From assembly GCA_023248635.1 (NCBI GenBank), contig JAHFED010000056.1:1-39065 (forward strand): a DNA stretch of 39,065 bases, read 5' to 3'. A model generated the notes under the pieces. The model did not search any database. It worked only from the letters and a program-made list of their open reading frames with translations, and was not told the DNA's origin. The DNA is from Myxococcales bacterium. Its GTDB lineage: Bacteria; Myxococcota; UBA727; VGSZ01. Shown piece after piece: positions 4,763 through 35,949 of this stretch. Positions within the stretch are counted from its first letter, which is position 1, and every line of letters begins with the position of its first letter. A program made the position numbers and the translations under genes.

Positions 4763-5599
4763 GTGCCCGAAGGACCCGAGGTCGAAACCGTTCGCCGATC
4801 GCTGCTGCCCCGCTTGTTGGGAGCCACGCTCGTGCGTCCGCGCGTGTCGGCGAAGAAGTTGCGCACGCCGATCACGAAAAAAGACCTGCGCGACGTCGAC
4901 GGCGCCGTCGTCACCGAGCTCTTTCGCAAGGGCAAGCTGCTGGGGATTCGCACCGAACGCGGCGGCGGCGTCTTCGTGCGCTTGGGCATGACAGGTCGTT
5001 TGGTCGTTGAGCCGAAGACGCAGCCGCCGGCCCTGCACACCCACGTACGCTTCGATGTCTGCGGGCCAGGGGCGGCGTCGGGGACAGAGTTGCGTTTCGT
5101 CGATCCCCGGCGCTTTGGTGAGGTGGTCCCCTTCAAAGATGAGGTTGAATGCGCGCTCGAGCTCGGGCGCATGGGCCCCGACGGCCTCGCCCTCGACGAC
5201 GACGACCGCGCCGTGGTTCGGGTTCGACTGCAGGCCACCGCGCGCGCCATCAAGGACGTGCTGCTCGATCAAGCCGTCGTCGCCGGCGTCGGCAACATCT
5301 ACGCGGCGGAAGCCTGCTTCGTCGCCCGCCTCTCGCCGCATCGGGCCGGCTCTTCCCTCGACGACGACGAAGCTCGGGCCCTGGTCTCGGCTGTCGAGAG
5401 CGTGCTGCAGCAGGGCGTACGGCACCGGGGCACCAGCTTCTCCGACTACGTCGACGGCGACGGCCAGCGTGGTGACAATGCTCGGCATCTGCACGTGTTC
5501 CAGCGCGAAGGCGAGCCCTGTCGCGCGTGTGGCGACGTCGTGCGGCGCGTGGTGCAAGGGCAGCGCAGCACTTTCTACTGTGGCCGCTGCCAGCGCTGA
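4763..5599 (+). CDS. mutM: Formamidopyrimidine-DNA glycosylase (Fpg/MutM)
   Basis: This base-excision repair enzyme removes 8-oxoguanine and formamidopyrimidines and nicks the abasic site. The 278-aa chain starts MPEGPEVETV, giving the catalytic N-terminal Pro2 and Glu3 after Met removal. RKGKLL (Lys58) is the conserved lysine. The segment near GVGNIYAAEACF is the helix-two-turn-helix. A C-terminal zinc finger uses Cys253, Cys256, Cys273 and Cys276. The GTG start has GAGGAAGA overlapping the previous stop codon, so translation is probably coupled to the FliK-like gene. Length and motifs are normal for the family. Confidence 0.97.
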   Translation: MPEGPEVETVRRSLLPRLLGATLVRPRVSAKKLRTPITKKDLRDVDGAVVTELFRKGKLLGIRTERGGGVFVRLGMTGRLVVEPKTQPPALHTHVRFDVCGPGAASGTELRFVDPRRFGEVVPFKDEVECALELGRMGPDGLALDDDDRAVVRVRLQATARAIKDVLLDQAVVAGVGNIYAAEACFVARLSPHRAGSSLDDDEARALVSAVESVLQQGVRHRGTSFSDYVDGDGQRGDNARHLHVFQREGEPCRACGDVVRRVVQGQRSTFYCGRCQR

Positions 5600-5639
5600 T
5601 CGCACGTGCTCGCGCTCGATCACCAAGGGACGCGGGCTG

Positions 5640-5853
5640 ATTCCCGATCTCGCTGAACTTCGACCGCGGAGCGGTCTCGTTCAGCTCCGTCGGGGATGCT
5701 CTTCTGGCAGGTCTGATGCAGACCTCGCCCCGCGCCGGCGGAGCCGGACGCGGGGCCCCCCACCAACTCCGCGTTCCGCGGGCGCGCTTCACGCGCGTCA
5801 TCCCGCGTCTTTCCCAGCTCGAAACGCGGTCGAACATCAAGGGGATGCGGGAT
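5640..5853 (+). repeat. Multi-hairpin dispersed element, copy 1
   Basis: This ~214-bp element occurs again at 30135-30348 in the same orientation with only scattered differences. It folds on paper into consecutive hairpins: a nested stem GCTGAAC...GTTCAGC enclosing GACCGC-GGA-GCGGTC; AGGTCT...AGACCT; CCCCGCG...CGCGGGG; GCGCG-CTTCA-CGCGC; and a closing ATCCCGC...GCGGGAT. It starts 41 bases after the mutM stop and ends 49 bases before the 3' end of the convergent kinase gene. It fills most of the 302-bp gap. It could be a MITE-like repeat, a structured RNA or a terminator. Confidence 0.85.
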
Positions 5854-5901
5854 GATTCCCCGGGAAGGGAGCGCCGATGGAGCCGTCGGACGGCCGGTCG
5901 C

Positions 5902-8900
5902 TTATTGGAGGGCTCGGATGGCGTTCTTGGCGGTTTCGGCGTCGGGTCCGCTCGGCGCCACCTCGAGGTACTGCTCATAGGCCGCGATGGCTTCGGTGGT
6001 CTTGCCGGCGCCGCGCAGCGCTTCGCCCAGGCCGAAGAAGGCCTCGGTGACGGCGGGCTCGCGCGCGATGATGTTGCGGAAACCTTTGATGGCCGCGTCG
6101 CTCTTGCCGAGGTCGATCTGGCTCCACGACAGCCCGAGCTCAGCCTTGCTGTCCCCAGGTTTCTTGGTGAGCGCAGCGCGGAACATCTTGGCCGCCTCGC
6201 CCGTGTGGCCGGCCTTTTGGGCCTTGGTCGCCTTGGCGAAAGCGCTGTCGTAGGTCTCTTCGACGACGACCGCAGGCACGACCGGTGGGATCGGCGTGGA
6301 GGCCGCAGGAGTCACCGCCGGGGTGCCGGCGTCGACGAGGCCAGGGGCACCCGCAGCCGCTGGATCGCCGAGCAAGGCGTGGGCGGCGATCCAGCGCAGG
6401 TCGCTGGGACTCTTTTTCAGGTGTTCGTCGACGACGGGACGCAGGGCGTCTTTGTCCCCGGCGGTCTGGGCCCTGGCGCTGTCGACGAGCAGGTGCAGCG
6501 AAGCGGGTCTCTTGTCGAAGGCGTCGACGGCGGCGTCGGCTGGGAAGGCGGTGCTGACGGCGGTCAGGGCCGCGAGGCCGTTGGCCAGCACGGCGTCGGC
6601 GCGGGCTTCATCGGCGAGCTCGGGGATGGCGGCGGCCTGGACGGCGGCGCGTTGCCGCGCTCCATCGCTGCCCAGGCTGGCGGCCACGAGCTCCGTGGTC
6701 ACCCGTGCCCAGCTGCTCTCGGCATCGTCGTCGTCGCCGGCGCTGGCCAACGCTCGGGTCGCGTACTTCTGGGCCAGCGCCAAGGCCGGTGCCGGATCGA
6801 TGCCGCTGCGGCCATCGCGCTGGGCCTGCAAGAGGGTGGCGGCTTGCTGCACGCGCCACCGCTCCAGTTGCAAGAGCGCCGCAGCGACGTCGGCGTCGAC
6901 GTCGGCCTGTTCCTCCCCGAGCAGGGGCCCGAGGTTGGCCAGCAGGGCATCGACGGTCGCTGGTTCGTCCTTGCGCGTGGCGGCCAGGGCGGCGTGGGCG
7001 TGCGTCAAGGAGGACCGGTCGCCTTCTTTGAGGGCCCGCAGCGTGTCGGGGAAGGCGAGGCGCAGCACGAGGGCGATGGCGACGAAGCTCCCCAGCACGC
7101 CGACGAGGGCCCACAGGGCCACCGGAATGCGCTTCTGGTCGGCGCGGTTGCGGGCCGGCGCTCGTCCGTTGGGATCGGTGACCACGGCCATGGATGCGGG
7201 GTCGACGCGCGGCGCGCTGGCGTCGGCGGCGGCCTTGGCGAGGGCATCTTGAATGACGGGATCGCCGATCTGCCAATGGCCTGTGTGCGAGGTCGGCAGG
7301 CTGCCCAGGTGAAAGGCCCCCGTCGCCGCCGGCAACATGGGATCGAAGGGATCCTGCGTCGTCGGCGTCCGGTTTTGCGGGTCGTTGGCCCAGCTGGCTG
7401 CGGCGCGTTCGGCGGCGGCCCGCGGGGTGGGGGCCGGGGGCTCGTCTTCGCTGGGCTCACCGTTGGGCTCGGTGGCCGCCGCCGTGCGGTTGGCCGTCGT
7501 CGAGGTGTGGGCGCTGGGGGGCTGGTGCACGGCGACGGGTGGCCCCGAGGGCGCTCGATCCCAGGTGCGGGCCGCGGCCTCGGCGGTGGCGAAGAAGCCC
7601 TGCAGCTGGGCGTCGTCGCCGAGTCGCGCGAAGCGGCCGCCGTCGGTCGACAGTTGGTCGTCTTTGGCGAGCTTTCCGTCGAGCACCCACTGCTGCAGCG
7701 TCGCCCGCTCCTGGAAATGCACGACGCTGCCATCGGCTTTGCGCACGACGAAGGCGCCGGTGGGACCCGAGGGCGGCCCGTTGACGCTCGGTTCGCGCGC
7801 CGGCTTGGGGGGTGGACGAGCTTCGACGCGGTCGGGGCGATCTTCGGGCCCGACCACGGTGGTGGGCTGGTCGCCGTCGTCGTCCTGGTCGGGCTGGGTG
7901 ACGGCCGGCAAGGCCACGGGGATGGGGCGCGCCGGGATGGGGGGAGCCGGCGCCCGCGACGACGACATCCCGAGGTTCTGCCCCGACGACGCCGACGACG
8001 ACGACGACATCCCCTGCACCTGGCCAGCGGCCGCCCGCCCGCTGCCATCGGTGGGCTCCATGGGCGTCAGGTCGCGGATGCGCTCGTCGAGCTCTTTGCC
8101 GAGGATTTGCTGCACGAAGGCCGCGACGGAGACCTCGCCCGACTGCAAGGACGTGCGATCGAGATATTCCTTGAGGCGCGCTGCGACGTCGCCGACGTTG
8201 TTGTAGCGCCGCGCCGGATCGCGCTCGAGCATCCGCAGCACGATGGCTTCGAGCTCAGGCGGAAACCCGGGCACATGTTGCGACGGTTTCGGGATGGGAT
8301 TCTGCAGGATTTTCTGTAGGGTATTTATCTCAGTATCAGCCTTGAACAATCTACGACCAGTGCACATCTCCCAGATGACGATCCCGAGCGAAAACTGATC
8401 GGAGCGACCATCGAGGGCCTCGCCCCGGACCTGTTCCGGCGACATGTACTGCAGCTTGCCCTTGACCATGCCGGCCTGGGTGCGCGACGACTTGTTGGCG
8501 GCTTTGGCGATGCCGAAGTCGACGAGCTTGGTGACGCCGTCGGCCCGCACCATGATGTTTTGGGGGCTGATGTCGCGGTGCACGATGTTGAGGGGAGAGC
8601 CACGCACATCCTTGGCGCGGTGGGCGTGATCGAGGCCCATGGCGGCCTCCATGACGATGCGAACGCTGACCTGGAAAGGCAGACCCACACCCGCCTTTGC
8701 CGCTGCATACCAAAGCTTTGAAAGATCTTCACCCGCAATGTATTCCATTGCAATGTAGTAGGTGCCGTACCAGTCGCCGACGTCGTAGATGGCGACGATG
8801 TTGGGATGGTTGAGCGTGGCGGCGACGCGGGCCTCGTCGAGGAATTGTTCGACGAACTCTTTTTCTTTGGCCAGGTCGCCACGCAGCGCCTTCAGGATGG

Positions 8901-9003
8901 CGAGTCGGTCGAGCACACCCGTCTGCCGTGCAAGGAAGACCTCGCCCATGCCGCCCTGGGCCAAGCGCCGGATCTTCTCGTACTTGCCAAACACCGAGCT
9001 CAC
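5902..9003 (-). CDS. Transmembrane Ser/Thr protein kinase with GYF-like and TPR regions
   Basis: This is a 1033-aa Hanks-type kinase. The catalytic domain spans about residues 8-282: glycine loop AQGGMGEVF (15-23), Lys38, HRD (142-144, in HRDISPQN), DFG (162-164) and SPE (188-190). After a Ser/Pro-rich linker, residues ~417-475 (VVRKADGSVVHFQE...) resemble the GYF-type domain found in myxobacterial kinases and gliding proteins. A single transmembrane helix lies at ~626-650. The C-terminal ~110 residues form TPR-like helices (AFAKATKAQKAGHTGEAAKMF). The kinase is therefore cytoplasmic with a periplasmic TPR tail, a plausible sensor or scaffold. The start is GTG 9001-9003 with AAGGTG upstream. 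Two short patches (8295-8345 and 8695-8760) use unusually A/T-rich codons. Confidence 0.93.
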   Translation of the reverse strand: MSSVFGKYEKIRRLAQGGMGEVFLARQTGVLDRLAILKALRGDLAKEKEFVEQFLDEARVAATLNHPNIVAIYDVGDWYGTYYIAMEYIAGEDLSKLWYAAAKAGVGLPFQVSVRIVMEAAMGLDHAHRAKDVRGSPLNIVHRDISPQNIMVRADGVTKLVDFGIAKAANKSSRTQAGMVKGKLQYMSPEQVRGEALDGRSDQFSLGIVIWEMCTGRRLFKADTEINTLQKILQNPIPKPSQHVPGFPPELEAIVLRMLERDPARRYNNVGDVAARLKEYLDRTSLQSGEVSVAAFVQQILGKELDERIRDLTPMEPTDGSGRAAAGQVQGMSSSSSASSGQNLGMSSSRAPAPPIPARPIPVALPAVTQPDQDDDGDQPTTVVGPEDRPDRVEARPPPKPAREPSVNGPPSGPTGAFVVRKADGSVVHFQERATLQQWVLDGKLAKDDQLSTDGGRFARLGDDAQLQGFFATAEAAARTWDRAPSGPPVAVHQPPSAHTSTTANRTAAATEPNGEPSEDEPPAPTPRAAAERAAASWANDPQNRTPTTQDPFDPMLPAATGAFHLGSLPTSHTGHWQIGDPVIQDALAKAAADASAPRVDPASMAVVTDPNGRAPARNRADQKRIPVALWALVGVLGSFVAIALVLRLAFPDTLRALKEGDRSSLTHAHAALAATRKDEPATVDALLANLGPLLGEEQADVDADVAAALLQLERWRVQQAATLLQAQRDGRSGIDPAPALALAQKYATRALASAGDDDDAESSWARVTTELVAASLGSDGARQRAAVQAAAIPELADEARADAVLANGLAALTAVSTAFPADAAVDAFDKRPASLHLLVDSARAQTAGDKDALRPVVDEHLKKSPSDLRWIAAHALLGDPAAAGAPGLVDAGTPAVTPAASTPIPPVVPAVVVEETYDSAFAKATKAQKAGHTGEAAKMFRAALTKKPGDSKAELGLSWSQIDLGKSDAAIKGFRNIIAREPAVTEAFFGLGEALRGAGKTTEAIAAYEQYLEVAPSGPDAETAKNAIRALQ

Positions 9004-29288: not shown

Positions 29289-30092
29289 ATGACGACAGCG
29301 CCGCGGGTCACTCTCACCATCGTCGAGCACGTCGCCCACGTGCGCCTCAACCGCCCCGAGAAGCGCAATGGCTTCGACGTCGCCATGTTCGAGGCCCTCA
29401 TCGAAACCGGCGAACGCCTGATCGCCGATCGCAGCGTGCGGGCGGTGGTGCTCGCGGGTGAGGGCAAGGCTTTTTCGGCGGGGCTTGATTGGATGTCGAT
29501 CATGGCCGCGGGTGCGGAGGCAGCCGAGCAGCTCTTGTCGCCGTCGGGGAGCAGCCCGGCCAACGCCGCCCAACGCTCCTGCTGGGTGTGGCGTGAGGTG
29601 CCAGTGCCCGTGATCGCCGCCGTGCACGGCGCGGTGCTCGGTGCGGGCCTGCAGCTCGCCCTTGCCGCCGACCTCCGGATCGCTGCGCCCGACTCGATGT
29701 TGGGGGCTCTCGAGGTGCGTTATGGATTGGTGCCCGACATGAGCGCATCGCAGGTGCTGCTCAAGCTCGTGCGGCCCGACGTGGCCCGGGAGCTGCTCTA
29801 CACCGGCCGTCAGGTCGCCGCCGACGAAGCGCTGCGCCTGGGCCTGGTCACCCAACTGGCCGACGATCCCGTGGCCGCAGCAACGTCGATGGCCCTGGCC
29901 ATCGCTGCCCATTCCCCCCATGCCGTGCGCGCGGCCAAGGCCTTGTGCCAAGGGGCACCCGAGCTGAGCGTTGCGGCCGCCCTGGCCTTCGAGGCCACGC
30001 TGCAGAAGCAGCTGATCGGCACCAAGAACCAGCTCGAAGCGGCGCGGGCGATGATGGCCCGAGACGTCCCGATCTTCGACGATCCAACCTGA
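29289..30092 (+). CDS. Crotonase/enoyl-CoA hydratase family protein
   Basis: This 267-aa crotonase-fold protein has oxyanion-hole segments LAGEGKAFSAGLDW and HGAVLGAGLQLALAADLRIA. GALEVRYGLVPDMSASQ places Glu at the position often used by hydratases for water addition, and Asp follows in VPDM. It could act as an enoyl-CoA hydratase or a related isomerase/thioesterase. The substrate is not predictable. ATG 29289 is preferred to the upstream extension. The gene is followed by a small stem (30099-30120) and then a multi-hairpin repeat. Confidence 0.88.
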   Translation: MTTAPRVTLTIVEHVAHVRLNRPEKRNGFDVAMFEALIETGERLIADRSVRAVVLAGEGKAFSAGLDWMSIMAAGAEAAEQLLSPSGSSPANAAQRSCWVWREVPVPVIAAVHGAVLGAGLQLALAADLRIAAPDSMLGALEVRYGLVPDMSASQVLLKLVRPDVARELLYTGRQVAADEALRLGLVTQLADDPVAAATSMALAIAAHSPHAVRAAKALCQGAPELSVAAALAFEATLQKQLIGTKNQLEAARAMMARDVPIFDDPT

Positions 30093-30134
30093 GCGAGATT
30101 GGGCTCGGTCAGCAGCCCAACCCCCGCACCGGGT

Positions 30135-30348
30135 AATCCCCGATCTCGCTGAACTTCGACCGCGGAGCGGTCTCGTTCATCTCCCTCGGGGATGCTCTTC
30201 TGGGAGGTCTGGTGCAGACCTCCCCCCGCGCCGGCGGAGCCGGACGCGGGGCCCCCCACCAACTCCGCGTTCCGCGGGCGCGCTTCACGCGCATCATCCC
30301 GCGTCTTTCCAATTCAGAACGCGGTCGAACATCAAGCGGACGCGGGAT
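30135..30348 (+). repeat. Multi-hairpin dispersed element, copy 2
   Basis: This second copy matches the element at 5640-5853 in the same orientation. The outer stem ATCCCCGA/TCGGGGAT is perfect here but has one mismatch in copy 1. The AGGTCT hairpin is extended here to nine perfect pairs (GGGAGGTCT/AGACCTCCC). A one-base length difference lies in the last hairpin loop. It starts 43 bases after the crotonase stop. With the flanking sequence it fills the 352-bp gap before the giant lipoprotein start; no gene is seen there. Confidence 0.85.
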
Positions 30349-30444
30349 AAGACTCCGTCGTCGCTGGGCCGTCGTGTGCGGTGCCACCGGAACAAGCTCT
30401 GGAGCCGCACCAACGGCTCGAACCGTCGGCTCTTCGGAGGGTGT

Positions 30445-33400
30445 GTGTTTTCACCTCGGTCTGCCCCCAGCTTCGCTCTCATCGTCGTCGTCGCCAGCGG
30501 CCTGGGGTGCCCGGCACCAGAGCCGCCACCGCTGCAGGGCGTGCAGGTCGGCACCCTGGTCGGCGAGGTCTTCATCGAGGATCCCGATCGGCAGAGCATC
30601 GGCGACGCCGTCGTCACTGTGCTTGGATCCCCGGCGTCGGCGGTCTCGGTCGCCAACAAGCAGTTCGTGCTCGAGTCGGTGGCACTCGGCACGCGCACGG
30701 TGTCGATCGTGCACGAAGCGCTGGGCCGGGCCACGGTCTTCGACGTCGAGATCAAGAGTCCCTTTCAGACGGTGACCCTCGACGCCGGCGACACCACGCT
30801 CAAGCGCGCGGCGGCGATCAACGGCACGGTGTTGGGCGTGTCGCGCGAAAACCTGCCCCAGGTGTTTCTGGTGGGAGGCACGAGCCAGCAAGTGGCCAAC
30901 GTCGGCGACGACGGCACCTTTGCGCTCGCCAACCTGCCCGCGGCGCGGGTGCAGATCGGGTTTGCGGCCGTCGACCGGGGGCTGGTCGTGCAGGAGCTCG
31001 ATCTCGTCGAAGGAGAGACCACGTCGCTGAGCCCTGTCACCCTCGAAGCCAGCAGCGTCGGTGATCTGCGCATCACCGGCCGGGTGCGGCTGGCCGGCGA
31101 GACCGAGCACACCGGCATCAGCGTGATTCTCAATGGAGGCTCGCAGGTGGTGGCCGCCGACGATGACGGCGTCTACGTCTTCTCCGATCTCTCGCCGGGC
31201 TTGTTCACCATCGAGGCCCGTCGGCCGGGCTTCCGCTCGGTGCTGATGCCCACCGTCGCGCTCAGCGCAGACGGCAGCGTGGACGGCATCTTCGATGCGT
31301 TCCTGGCTCCCGGCCAAGACGACGCCAGCATCGGGGGCGGGGGAGACGGGGGCGAGGAGGGGAGCGCATTTCAAGTCTTCATCGACAACCCGCGCGTGGG
31401 CGACCGCATCTTTGCCAGCGACGAGCTGGTGCTGGGTGCCCGCCTCGAAGGCAGCGGCGCCGACGCCGTCGCCAACTCCGAGTTGTCTTGGGACTTTCGC
31501 GCTGCCGGCGGCGGAGGAGCGTTGACGAGCCTCGGCACCGGCCGCGTCGTCGTCGTCGATACGGGGGCGGTGCCGGGATTGCTGGGCGAGATCGAGCTGG
31601 TGCTCAGCGGTGTGCATGCCGGCCTCACCGACGTCGCCACCGCCACGGTCTTCGTCGATCCCTTGATCGTCACGCCCACCTTCAACGCCCGCGTTGACCT
31701 CGCGCTGGGCAGCTCGGCCATCGCCCTCCCCTCGATCAGCGTCGGCGTCGACGGCGTCATCACCCTGCCGATGACCGAGACCCAACCGGTCGCCCTCACG
31801 GCCACCGTGCTCGACGGGCGCGGCGTCGACGTCAGCGGCGGCCTCGAGTGGGCTTCGGACACGGGCTTCTTCTTCACCGGGCCCGAGAGCGCGCTCTCGG
31901 TGTTGCCCGTGGGAACCCACACCTTTGCCGTGCGCTTCTCCGATGGGCAGGACCTCATCGATGCCGCCAGCGTCGTCGTCGTCGTCGCCCCTCTCGAATT
32001 CGCGCTCACCATCGAGGCCCCGCTCGACGTGGCGGCCAACCCCGCCCCGCGCGGTGATGTGCTCAACAACCCGCCTTACTTCGATGACACCGGCGTGCCT
32101 TTGCTCGCCCTCGTCGACCATCCCTTCCAGCTGGTGTTTCCGGTGACCGCGGCGACCTGGCGCGACGGCGACGGCGACGTCATCGCCACCGGACCCCTGG
32201 TGCGACAGCTCGACGGCTCCTTCCGATTCACCGGTCGCGCCCGAGACCTGAGCCCCGGAGCGCACCTGCTCTCTCTCGAGCTCAGCGACGTGCAGGGCAA
32301 CGCCACGTCGTCGACCACGCTGATCACCGTGCAGGAGGTCGTGTTCGACGCCGTCTTTGCCCTGCCGCTCATCGACGCCGACGTCGAAGAGGGCGACGCC
32401 GTCGTCGTCGACGTCGACGTCGAGCACAGCTTGTTGGGCAATGGGCTTTTGCGCAGCGATCTGCACGTCAGCTACACCAGCTCGTTGGTCGGGCTCTTGC
32501 GCAACGCGGGCGGCGCCTCGGTGTTCGGCGTCGACGAGACGCCGGCCCTGGTCGGCATGGGCATCGGTCGTCACACGCTCACCGCCCGGGTCACCGATGG
32601 TCGGGGCGTGGCCGCCGCGACCCGGGATGTGGTGGTGCGCAGACCCGGGGTGAACATCAACATCCTCGAGCCTGCCGACGACAGCGCGCTGTCCCCCGGC
32701 TTGCCCGTGCGCTTCACCGCCACCGCCGTCGAAGACGACGCCAACGACGACGCCACCTTCCGTTGGCTCATCGATGGCGAAGAGATCGACGCGACCTTCG
32801 GCGACTACGGCACCGACGCCGCCAATCCCACGCGCTTGACCATCGATCTGGGGGCCTTCGCCGCCGACGTCGGCATCTTCGCCGATCCGCGGCTGGCCCC
32901 CGGTCCGCACCTGCTCTCGTTCTGCGCGACCCTCGAGGGACTCGACTCCTGCCAGAGCGTGGACCTCGAGGTCCCGCCCTTGGGCTTCGAGCTGTGTCCC
33001 TCGGTGTCGCCCCGCTCCATCACGGCGGGCCAAACCGAGGTGTGGGAGGAGGTACGACGCTTGAACTGCGACGTCACCGTCAACGGCGGCACCCTGATCA
33101 TCGCCCCCGGCGCCCGCATCGTCATCGACGACTTGGGCAGCGGGCTTCGCTTTCTCGCGATGGGCCCCGCTGGCGGCAGCATCCACATCGGCGACATCGG
33201 CAGCAATCGTCCGGCGATCATCGAGAGCAACACCCGGGTGGGCGCCAGCTGGTTCGGGCTGCAGCTGCAGGTTACGGGGACGACGGCGGCGTCGGTGGTC
33301 ATCGAAAACGCCATCCTGCGGGATGCCGATCGCGCGATCCGGCCCGCCTTCGGCGGTGTCTTCGAGTCCGAGCAGCAGCAGCTCTCCTTGCACAAAGTCA

Positions 33401-35949
33401 GCTTCGAAAAAGTGGGGAGTGCCTGGGAGAACCTCTGCCCCGATCTTGTCGACGACGTCACCATCGACAACGCCGACTTCTCCAGTGCAACCGCTGTGAT
33501 CTTCGAAGGCGCCTTCCCCCGCTGCTTTGCCGCTCCCCGCACCTACACGGGCTTGCACCTCAACAACGTCACCCGGGGGATCGTGCTCACGCGCGCAGGC
33601 ACGGTCACCGTCGAGAACTCGACCTTCCACACCTTCGACTCGTCGATCGAGCCCTCGGTGTTCGTGAGCACGAGCGAAGATGCGTCCGCTCGGCTCTTCG
33701 TGCAGGACTCGGTGTTCGACGACTGCGGCGACACTTTCAATCCGGTGATCGAGGTGAGCGGCTGTGTCGGTCTGACCGCGCGACGCAACACCTTCACCAA
33801 CAACCGCACCGCCGTCGCCGACGACCCCGACGAGTGCCGCTTCTTCGACAGCGATGAGTCCCGCCTGCTGCTCGTGCACAACCGCTTCGAGGGCAACGAC
33901 GTTGCCGTCGACCTTCGCAACGGCATCTCCCGCGCCGAGCTGCACCTGAACGCTTTTGTGGACAATGCCATCGACCTGCGCGCCGACGGCATCCTCATCG
34001 GCGCCACCTATGGAGTCGACGTCGATGCCCGCGGCAATTTCTTCGATCGCGGCACCCTTTTTCTGCGGGGCATTGGCGCCGGTCGTACCCTCAACCTCGC
34101 GGGCATCGTCGACTTCTTCGACGTTCCGGCCAGCGACCGGGTGGTGCGCACCACGCCCACGCTCATCAATGTCGCCCAGGCGGGCCCCACGGCAACCACC
34201 CGCACGGCACTGGTGGGACCGGACCAGCAAGCCCGTCTCACCCCCGGCATGTGCGTGGCACCCGAGGTCTTTGCCCTCGACGGAGCGGTGAGCTTCGTCG
34301 ACGACGGAGCCGCTGCTTTGGCCCCCGGCGAGTGCGCGGTCTTCACGATTGGAGCAAGCGGCGATGCCGACGGCCTCGACCTCACGCCGGTGTCCGTCGA
34401 CGACAACGGCTGCATCGACGTCGACTTCGCGCCGGGGGAGCACGCCATTTCCGTCCATTGTGCCCACGCCGCCGGCGTCGATGTTCACGATGCGCGCTTC
34501 CTTGTCGATGCCACGCGCTTCTCCGGGCCGCTGCTGGGCGCTCCCGAAGTGCATTGGTCTGGCGAAGTGGTGCTCGACGGCGACGTCACCGTTCCGGCGG
34601 GTACGACCTTGGTGATCGAGCCCGGCACCACGGTGCGCCTCGCCACCACCGATCGCCTGGCGGGGCAGATCTTTCACAACCACGGCGACAACCCCGACGG
34701 CACCGACAACAGCTGCACGGGGTGCTTCAGCGACAACGTCGTCAACGGCAGCTTCGGTGAACGTGCCCTGGTCGACATCTTCGTCGACGGCGACCTCGTC
34801 GCCGAGGGCACAGCCTTGGCGCCGATCGTTTTCCTCCCCGAAGACGCCGTCGTCGCCCCTTCGAAGTGGGGCGGCATCCGCTTGGCGCTCGGTTCCTCGG
34901 CGTCCTTGTCCCACGTCGACATCGGCGGAGCCGACATCGCGCTGCATGGGGAATTCGCGCCCATCGATCCCTTCTCCGAACCCGTCGTCGATGTCAGCGA
35001 CAGCGTGGTCCGCGAGACCCGCGTCGGTTTGCGGGGTCCTTGCCCGGTGACCTTCTCTGGCAACGTGATGAACCGCGTGATCGAGCCGATGGGCGACCTG
35101 TTCTGCAGCACCGGACTGGTGATCGCAGACTCGGACTTCGTCGACGTCGGCAATCCCTCGGCCGTGGACTTGAGCCCGCTGTTTTCCTTTGGCAGCTACA
35201 GCAGCGGCGGCAGCGACGGCGGCTCCATCGTCTTTAGCGGCGTCACCCTCTCGCGCCTGGGCGGCACCAACGAGCAGGCCTTCGTCACGACCTTGAGTCA
35301 GGCTCGCATCGCCACCATCGCCATCCGCGACAGCGACATCGAGAACATCAACGCCCTCGTGCACCTCAACGGCGATCGCCTCGGCCTCTTCGTCGCCGCT
35401 GTCGTCGAACGCACCACGGTCACCAACTTCGATCGCTTGGTGCAGGACAACGGCTTCGGCACCATCGATCGCGCCGACATCGATCAATGCCGCTTCACGC
35501 GCGGCAACGAGCTCTTCGCCACCGACGACAGCGACATGGTGCGGGACATCGAGATGACGCGCACCGCCATCAGCAACGTCGTCACGCCCTTCAAGGACAC
35601 CAGGCTCGACGGCAATTCGACCTTCCGACTCGTCGTCACCGACAACTCCTTCGACACCGCCACCGACATCTTTCAGGTCGCGCCGCTGAACATCACCACC
35701 GACCGCGCCGTCGACGCCCGCCGCAACAACTTCACCAACGTCAGCGGGCGGATCGTGGATGTGAACAGCACCGACGCCGACAGCCAGATCTCCATCGATG
35801 TCAGCGGCAGCTTCTTTGGCACCACTGACAGCGTGGCCATCGAAGCCGCCCTCGACGATCCCCAGCTCGACCTCGGCGCCGACTTCAAGGGTCGCTGCCA
35901 CTACGCACCTTTTTCGACGACGGCCTTGAACCAGGATTTGCTGCCATGA
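30445..35949 (+). CDS. Giant multi-domain lipoprotein with right-handed beta-helix regions
   Basis: This 1834-aa surface lipoprotein starts at GTG 30445 with CGGAGG four bases upstream. The signal MFSPRSAPSFALIVVVASG ends at lipobox GLGC. The first ~300 residues look like carboxypeptidase-regulatory-type beta-sandwich repeats (GTLVGEVFIEDPDRQ, ITGRVRLAGETEHTG). A Gly/Glu linker is followed by several Ig/cadherin-like domains to ~870. The second half has parallel beta-helix signatures: NGGTLIIAPGARIVI, AGTVTVENSTFHTF, PAGTTLVIEPGTTVRL, with many short N/D-rich turns. These architectures bind surfaces or polysaccharides. The stop overlaps the next start (ATGA), so the PEGA protein is translationally coupled. 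Confidence 0.85.
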   Translation: MFSPRSAPSFALIVVVASGLGCPAPEPPPLQGVQVGTLVGEVFIEDPDRQSIGDAVVTVLGSPASAVSVANKQFVLESVALGTRTVSIVHEALGRATVFDVEIKSPFQTVTLDAGDTTLKRAAAINGTVLGVSRENLPQVFLVGGTSQQVANVGDDGTFALANLPAARVQIGFAAVDRGLVVQELDLVEGETTSLSPVTLEASSVGDLRITGRVRLAGETEHTGISVILNGGSQVVAADDDGVYVFSDLSPGLFTIEARRPGFRSVLMPTVALSADGSVDGIFDAFLAPGQDDASIGGGGDGGEEGSAFQVFIDNPRVGDRIFASDELVLGARLEGSGADAVANSELSWDFRAAGGGGALTSLGTGRVVVVDTGAVPGLLGEIELVLSGVHAGLTDVATATVFVDPLIVTPTFNARVDLALGSSAIALPSISVGVDGVITLPMTETQPVALTATVLDGRGVDVSGGLEWASDTGFFFTGPESALSVLPVGTHTFAVRFSDGQDLIDAASVVVVVAPLEFALTIEAPLDVAANPAPRGDVLNNPPYFDDTGVPLLALVDHPFQLVFPVTAATWRDGDGDVIATGPLVRQLDGSFRFTGRARDLSPGAHLLSLELSDVQGNATSSTTLITVQEVVFDAVFALPLIDADVEEGDAVVVDVDVEHSLLGNGLLRSDLHVSYTSSLVGLLRNAGGASVFGVDETPALVGMGIGRHTLTARVTDGRGVAAATRDVVVRRPGVNINILEPADDSALSPGLPVRFTATAVEDDANDDATFRWLIDGEEIDATFGDYGTDAANPTRLTIDLGAFAADVGIFADPRLAPGPHLLSFCATLEGLDSCQSVDLEVPPLGFELCPSVSPRSITAGQTEVWEEVRRLNCDVTVNGGTLIIAPGARIVIDDLGSGLRFLAMGPAGGSIHIGDIGSNRPAIIESNTRVGASWFGLQLQVTGTTAASVVIENAILRDADRAIRPAFGGVFESEQQQLSLHKVSFEKVGSAWENLCPDLVDDVTIDNADFSSATAVIFEGAFPRCFAAPRTYTGLHLNNVTRGIVLTRAGTVTVENSTFHTFDSSIEPSVFVSTSEDASARLFVQDSVFDDCGDTFNPVIEVSGCVGLTARRNTFTNNRTAVADDPDECRFFDSDESRLLLVHNRFEGNDVAVDLRNGISRAELHLNAFVDNAIDLRADGILIGATYGVDVDARGNFFDRGTLFLRGIGAGRTLNLAGIVDFFDVPASDRVVRTTPTLINVAQAGPTATTRTALVGPDQQARLTPGMCVAPEVFALDGAVSFVDDGAAALAPGECAVFTIGASGDADGLDLTPVSVDDNGCIDVDFAPGEHAISVHCAHAAGVDVHDARFLVDATRFSGPLLGAPEVHWSGEVVLDGDVTVPAGTTLVIEPGTTVRLATTDRLAGQIFHNHGDNPDGTDNSCTGCFSDNVVNGSFGERALVDIFVDGDLVAEGTALAPIVFLPEDAVVAPSKWGGIRLALGSSASLSHVDIGGADIALHGEFAPIDPFSEPVVDVSDSVVRETRVGLRGPCPVTFSGNVMNRVIEPMGDLFCSTGLVIADSDFVDVGNPSAVDLSPLFSFGSYSSGGSDGGSIVFSGVTLSRLGGTNEQAFVTTLSQARIATIAIRDSDIENINALVHLNGDRLGLFVAAVVERTTVTNFDRLVQDNGFGTIDRADIDQCRFTRGNELFATDDSDMVRDIEMTRTAISNVVTPFKDTRLDGNSTFRLVVTDNSFDTATDIFQVAPLNITTDRAVDARRNNFTNVSGRIVDVNSTDADSQISIDVSGSFFGTTDSVAIEAALDDPQLDLGADFKGRCHYAPFSTTALNQDLLP

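Follow-up and report, generated by a model that had tools for sequence, protein, structure and literature searches.

The 214-bp hairpin-rich unit that occurs twice in the window, the whole 39,065-nucleotide stretch of Myxococcales DNA analysed here, has been shown to be a MITE by its TIRs, target-site duplications (TSDs), copy number and nesting, and it represents a previously undescribed family within a familiar class of element. The observations as a whole are best explained, with a probability of roughly 0.85, by a MITE that would be moved by a transposase acting in trans, tolerated at stop codons and loaded with an older double-hairpin core as cargo. The initial annotation had described two nearly identical, hairpin-rich copies in the same orientation, and these are indeed found where it placed them, sharing 93.5% identity across 214 bp and giving folding z values of -4.5 and -5.6 relative to shuffled sequence. 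Copy 1 (212 bp, plus strand), as delimited by the genome-wide family and its end definition, spans 5641-5852, between TGA duplications at 5638-5640 and 5853-5855 which are read directly from the sequence and agree with the duplication seen across the family. Consensus ends and folding define its imperfect left TIR of about 28 bp (5641-5668, plus strand), which pairs in the fold with an internal partner to form hairpin 1 (about 5641-5696), while the right TIR, CGCGGTCGAACATCAAGGGGATGCGGGA, is located at 5825-5852 (plus strand) by end alignment and the consensus. Between them lies the double-hairpin core, composed of hairpins 2 and 3 with a C-rich tail (5704-5764, plus strand), which is recognized by a covariance-model match, by related cores elsewhere and by covariation. 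Copy 2 (211 bp, plus strand), delimited by pairwise identity and the family ends, spans 30137-30347, with TAA duplications at 30134-30136 and 30348-30350 (sequence and family ends) and a core at 30200-30260 on the same strand (covariance-model match, 79.9 bits).

Both copies follow genes whose ends are real. Copy 1 lies downstream of a formamidopyrimidine-DNA glycosylase gene (fpg; 4763-5599, plus strand; Pfam PF01149, PF06831 and PF06827) with its stop codon at 5597-5599, and is followed by a convergent gene for a Ser/Thr protein kinase with TPRs (5902-9003, minus strand; Pfam PF00069 and TPR, gene call). Copy 2 lies downstream of an enoyl-CoA hydratase/isomerase gene (29289-30092, plus strand; PF00378) with its stop at 30090-30092, and is followed by a gene for a large beta-helix/CarboxypepD_reg protein (30376-35949, plus strand; PF13620 and PF13229). 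The duplicated TNA begins 38 bp after the stop for copy 1 and 41 bp for copy 2.

The family was surveyed in the window's own assembly (G000; 6.5 Mb, 135 contigs), where a similarity search revealed tens of copies with 92-97% identity. A search with end patterns detected 178 left and 171 right ends, corresponding to about 175 copies, and reversed-pattern controls for both ends gave 0 matches in the same assembly. Alignment places the copy boundaries at CTNA|TCCCCGATCTCG...GCGGGA|TNAG, with N identical on either side of each copy, and an exact TNA duplication occurs in 84 of the 93 distinct complete copies (TGA 57, TCA 17, TAA 9, TTA 1). The 212-bp consensus carries an imperfect TIR of about 28 bp (left, TCCCCGATCTCGCTGAACTTCGACCGCG; right, as reverse complement, TCCCGCGTCCGCTTGATGTTCGACCGCG), and 71 near-full-length copies diverge from it by 2.5% on average. 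The unit thus combines the properties by which MITEs are recognized: TIRs, a TSD, dispersed high copy number, short length and no transposase gene. QMITE, MITEAba12, Correia and ERIC elements are likewise short, noncoding, intergenic and present in high copy, with TIRs and a TSD; compared with prokaryotic MITEs in general, the family described here differs in the high share of copies exactly at stop codons and in a conserved, covarying core which predates the MITE. No published description of the repeat was found in a literature search of open-licence papers.

Shortened derivatives have also been detected, the smallest of about 45 bp, and a further subfamily, with roughly 11 copies of about 162 bp each, has the left end and core in common with the main one, a different right end (TCCCAAGTCCAGTTGAAGTTCG) and TNA duplications as well. 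One derivative of about 46 bp, near 1684-1735 of locus L173 (G000 C102:105384-105434), consists of scarcely more than both ends, with TCA on each side. Contigs of the assembly often end in the repeat (e.g. C5:176, C73:37-326, C77:165, C93:88, C110:89 and C114:88); since many contig ends are made of it, the copies counted are probably fewer than those actually present, and the gaps could conceal an autonomous element.

Copies have also entered one another. In arrays at C60, C62 and C18, the left part of a copy (1-82) is followed by a full copy and then by the right part of the first (79-221). The host copy is split at the TGA of the hairpin-2 loop, which is thus a landing site for additional copies, and removal of one TGA restores an intact GGTCTGATGCAGACC. 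Taking into account that the uninterrupted loop is seen in other copies, the nested arrays act as an internal empty-site comparison.

When the MITE was used as a query in related genomes, the matches were partial and mostly confined to hairpins 2 and 3, which constitute the core of about 61-68 nt. A first covariance model (R1) found the core in each of the four genomes of the family and in two others that are less closely related. Of 195 Myxococcota genomes searched with a broader model (R2), 16 gave matches, belonging to families f1, f3, f18, f19 and f30; the scores in f18 and f30 are modest (33-37 bits), and none of the copies examined there lies within a called gene. Outside the MITE, the core sits at gene 3' ends in other Myxococcota, often 0-11 nt past the stop. 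In one genome of the same family (G003) and one of the same order (G005) it occurs without TIRs, mostly 1-11 nt 3' of the stop, and in G032 it borders on stop codons or overlaps them, or else adjoins start regions in antisense. The latter genome also contains short tandem arrays in which the core recurs about every 77-81 nt (L281, L282, L285, L286). In the congeners G001 and G002 (L190-L216, L313-L317), the core is found inside a different inverted-repeat element of about 160-164 bp with ends CAGGCTGAGGTGAAAAC, for which no clear target duplication was found. A subset of cores in f18 genomes (e.g. L242, L254, L255, L299 and L305) lies at a near-constant 67-68 nt past the stop and is preceded by a conserved module, tcggtgtcgcgaatcacgccatggtttagccatgttctgac, another repeat which seems to begin near the stop.

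The pairing of the core is strongly conserved. Among 78 distinct sequences in the R2-fitted alignment, standard pairs occupy 97.4% of stem cells and both partners have changed in 16 of 17 pairs, whereas sliding the partner by 1-3 columns, as a control, lowers pairing to 61% or less. The R1-fitted alignment agrees with these results, and an unfitted MAFFT alignment still shows compensatory changes in 9 of the 17 pairs. As judged from these sequence comparisons, the core is older than the MITE, and it has been shown to be independent of it and to covary in several Myxococcota families. The earlier impression that stem pairing is preserved has some substance for the inner core, which in other Myxococcota is found behind stop codons with no MITE involved. 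The associated suggestion of a structured element at gene 3' ends stands in two respects, namely that insertions strongly favour gene ends and that the inner double hairpin covaries, and fails when applied to the 214-bp unit as a whole. Neither the core nor the whole element matched any Rfam family at the gathering threshold, with only chance-level matches elsewhere (E up to 5), and no exact match to the core hairpins was found in viral contigs. No U-tract follows the core hairpins, the tails being C-rich, so that the pair lacks the defining mark of an intrinsic terminator. The core matters more than the MITE, given that it covaries, extends over several Myxococcota families, is absent from Rfam, sits at gene ends and travels in different mobile carriers.

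With regard to function, the sequence features suggest that the core is most likely a REP-like 3' hairpin pair, possibly a terminator or an mRNA-protecting structure, carried as cargo. Relative to the upstream neighbour, it lies in sense 50 times and in antisense 19 times, a figure inflated by convergent regions; between co-directional neighbours the numbers are 23 and 15, a weak constraint, and the preference is strong only in G003 and G005 (9 to 2). These orientations fit two hairpins that gene ends tolerate or profit from whichever way they point better than a strictly sense RNA. It is a serious possibility, at somewhat less than even odds, that the core by itself does nothing for the host and is a palindrome, neutral or selfish, that gene ends merely tolerate. 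Its occurrence in both orientations, the tandem arrays in G032 and the avoidance of divergent (promoter) regions, where it was found in 1 of 59 cases, all agree with this, and covariation could also come from mobile palindromes amplified as hairpins; against it stand the strength of the covariation across families and the frequent position 0-11 nt from the stop, especially in G003 and G005. Another proposal can be put forward tentatively, at clearly less than even odds: the core may be an undescribed Myxococcota 3'-end element, either a bidirectional terminator or an mRNA 3' shield, which unrelated MITEs would have captured independently, thereby becoming tolerable gene-end insertions with a 3'-end signal of their own. 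In the reading preferred here, the core most likely acts at the single-strand level as the REP-like pair mentioned above, through termination and/or protection of the mRNA 3' end in either orientation, and would have been captured as cargo both by the MITE and by a different repeat in the sister species. For GC-rich bacteria, it makes a testable case that 3' ends can be signalled in the absence of a U-tract and that mobile DNA spreads such signals.

Similar arrangements have been reported in other bacteria. The SPRITE, RUP and BOX elements of Streptococcus pneumoniae are likewise small, dispersed, hairpin-rich and intergenic, and insert into each other, with SPRITE being terminator-like (PMC10969869). 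They differ from the present elements in sequence and host, and here no U-tract is seen and a conserved core is common to unrelated carrier repeats. REP and BIME sequences are also intergenic palindromes at gene ends which are targeted by IS elements (PMC1525189), but in the present case no RAYT association was found and the core consists of two hairpins followed by a C-rich tail. Mobilization of the 214-bp unit as a REP/REPIN-type element by a RAYT (Y1 HUH) transposase would account for its palindromic, intergenic, high-copy character and its position at gene 3' ends, and the core does resemble a REP doublet; this origin is nevertheless very unlikely, as the unit bears TIRs and a TSD, neither of which IS200/RAYT chemistry is known to yield. 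Moreover, a PF01797 gene is absent from G000, G002, G005, G032 and G114, and the Y1 genes of the remaining genomes have no flanking core, nothing above 19 bits being found within about 1.5 kb. A RAYT link for the core itself was rejected, as no RAYT gene flanked by the core was found in these genomes.

Mobility of the MITE would instead depend on a DDE-type transposase acting in trans, presumably recognizing the imperfect TIRs of about 28 bp, with insertion at a CTNAG-like target and a 3-bp stagger that would duplicate the TNA, the signature present in the sequence. The IS1031-group elements of IS5 prefer TNA targets and give 3-bp repeats, and they and their derived MITEs thus resemble the present family in the TNA target and the 3-bp TNA duplication (PMC12016507). 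They differ in that PF13586 has no match in G000 and in that the MITE TIR, TCCCCGATCTCG..., is unlike the GAACCTGTC... of the ISLrh example. Searches of this assembly for the IS1031-type transposase (PF13586, DDE_Tnp_1_2) and for DDE_Tnp_4 (PF13359) were both empty, and given the PF13586 result the MITE was not filed as an IS1031 derivative. At the loci examined in this assembly, which is fragmented at repeats, no autonomous partner was found between paired MITE ends up to 3.5 kb apart; such a partner is frequently missing for MITEs, and the definition does not strictly demand one. Long TNA-bounded pairs in L173 and L086 were considered as autonomous elements and rejected, their content being host genes between separate copies.

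The only DDE_Tnp_1 (PF01609) genes in G000 belong to an IS4-type IS (Tnp_DNA_bind plus DDE_Tnp_1). Three copies or fragments are present: one at C5:3322-4698 (L111, minus strand), in hairpin 3; a truncated one at C59:61027-61854 (L112, minus strand); and a copy or fragment at C76:12050-12145 (L127, minus strand), again in hairpin 3. All three lie within or beside MITE sequence, an association that would be expected if the MITE were a deletion derivative of this IS. Such a derivation is most improbable, however, considering that the IS has TIRs of its own (CTCATGATCCGTCACATC / GATGTGATCAATCATGAG), which differ from those of the MITE and resemble the ends of L120, a Polyangiaceae relative that lacks MITE sequence, and that it enters hairpin 3 at the fixed point CGCC^GGCG, the C5 and C76 insertions facing opposite ways. 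Much as other IS elements do with REPs (PMC1525189), the IS uses MITE hairpin 3 as its target. A role for it as driver of the MITE was likewise rejected, on account of its own TIRs and the use of the MITE hairpin as its target. The IS is in itself an example of a target-specific IS, inserted at one fixed point of the hairpin in both orientations.

Placement of the MITE at gene ends was assessed with our own simple codon-model gene caller, trained on the window. Among 77 copies, the neighbouring genes are convergent in 45 cases, co-directional in 26 and divergent in 6, and the TNA is the exact stop codon of a neighbouring gene in 41 of 84 copies (33 left-end and 8 right-end cases). As the TGA or TAA is duplicated at the stop, the neighbouring gene stays intact, and the family is thus a clean example of a TNA-duplicating transposon landing on stop codons with genes left unbroken. 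The target flanks show C before the TNA in 35 of 48 cases and G after it in 31 of 48. In the surrounding sequence, 32 of 73 permitted CTNAG sites are stops, as are 52 of 315 sites that match by half and 32 of the remaining 378; weighted by the site classes used, 23.7 of 84 copies would be expected at stops compared with the 41 observed (simulated P about 5e-6), an excess that depends on our own gene caller and on a null drawn from loci near MITEs. Placement at stops by pure targeting was rejected, in that the CTNAG supply alone predicts about 24 of 84, so that a further cause has to be sought for just a part of the excess. Target choice, together with the loss of insertions that break genes, accounts for over half of the stop effect, leaving a moderate excess. 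Insertions inside genes would be purged by selection, and TGA and TAA, being TNA sites, provide a large part of the CTNAG sites outside coding sequence in this GC-rich genome, so that about half of the copies lie exactly at stops. Each insertion also puts a hairpin-rich 3' region behind a gene. A left-to-right bias like that at stops (33:8) is for the most part also seen away from stops (TGA 28 : TCA 10), indicating that the target is used asymmetrically and that the direction of the gene is not the cause.

The position 41-43 bp after a stop, from which the initial annotation had argued for a fixed 3'-UTR RNA, holds roughly for both copies of the window and does not extend to the family, in which distances to the stop range from 0 to hundreds of bp, in both orientations and beside unrelated genes, so the spacing in the window is a coincidence. 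A dedicated structured 3'-UTR RNA of about 214 nt at a fixed position after genes, suggested by the five stems and by two sense copies about 40 bp past a stop, is scarcely credible in view of the exact TNA duplications (84 of 93), the varying distances and orientations, the self-nesting and the approximately 175 copies. The same annotation had named target-site duplications at the ends and scattered positions as what would speak for a MITE, and both have been found, which together make the 214-bp unit a MITE rather than an RNA of fixed spacing. A single copy (L170; G000 C62:27500-31000) appears to lie within a called gene, a possible gene interruption.
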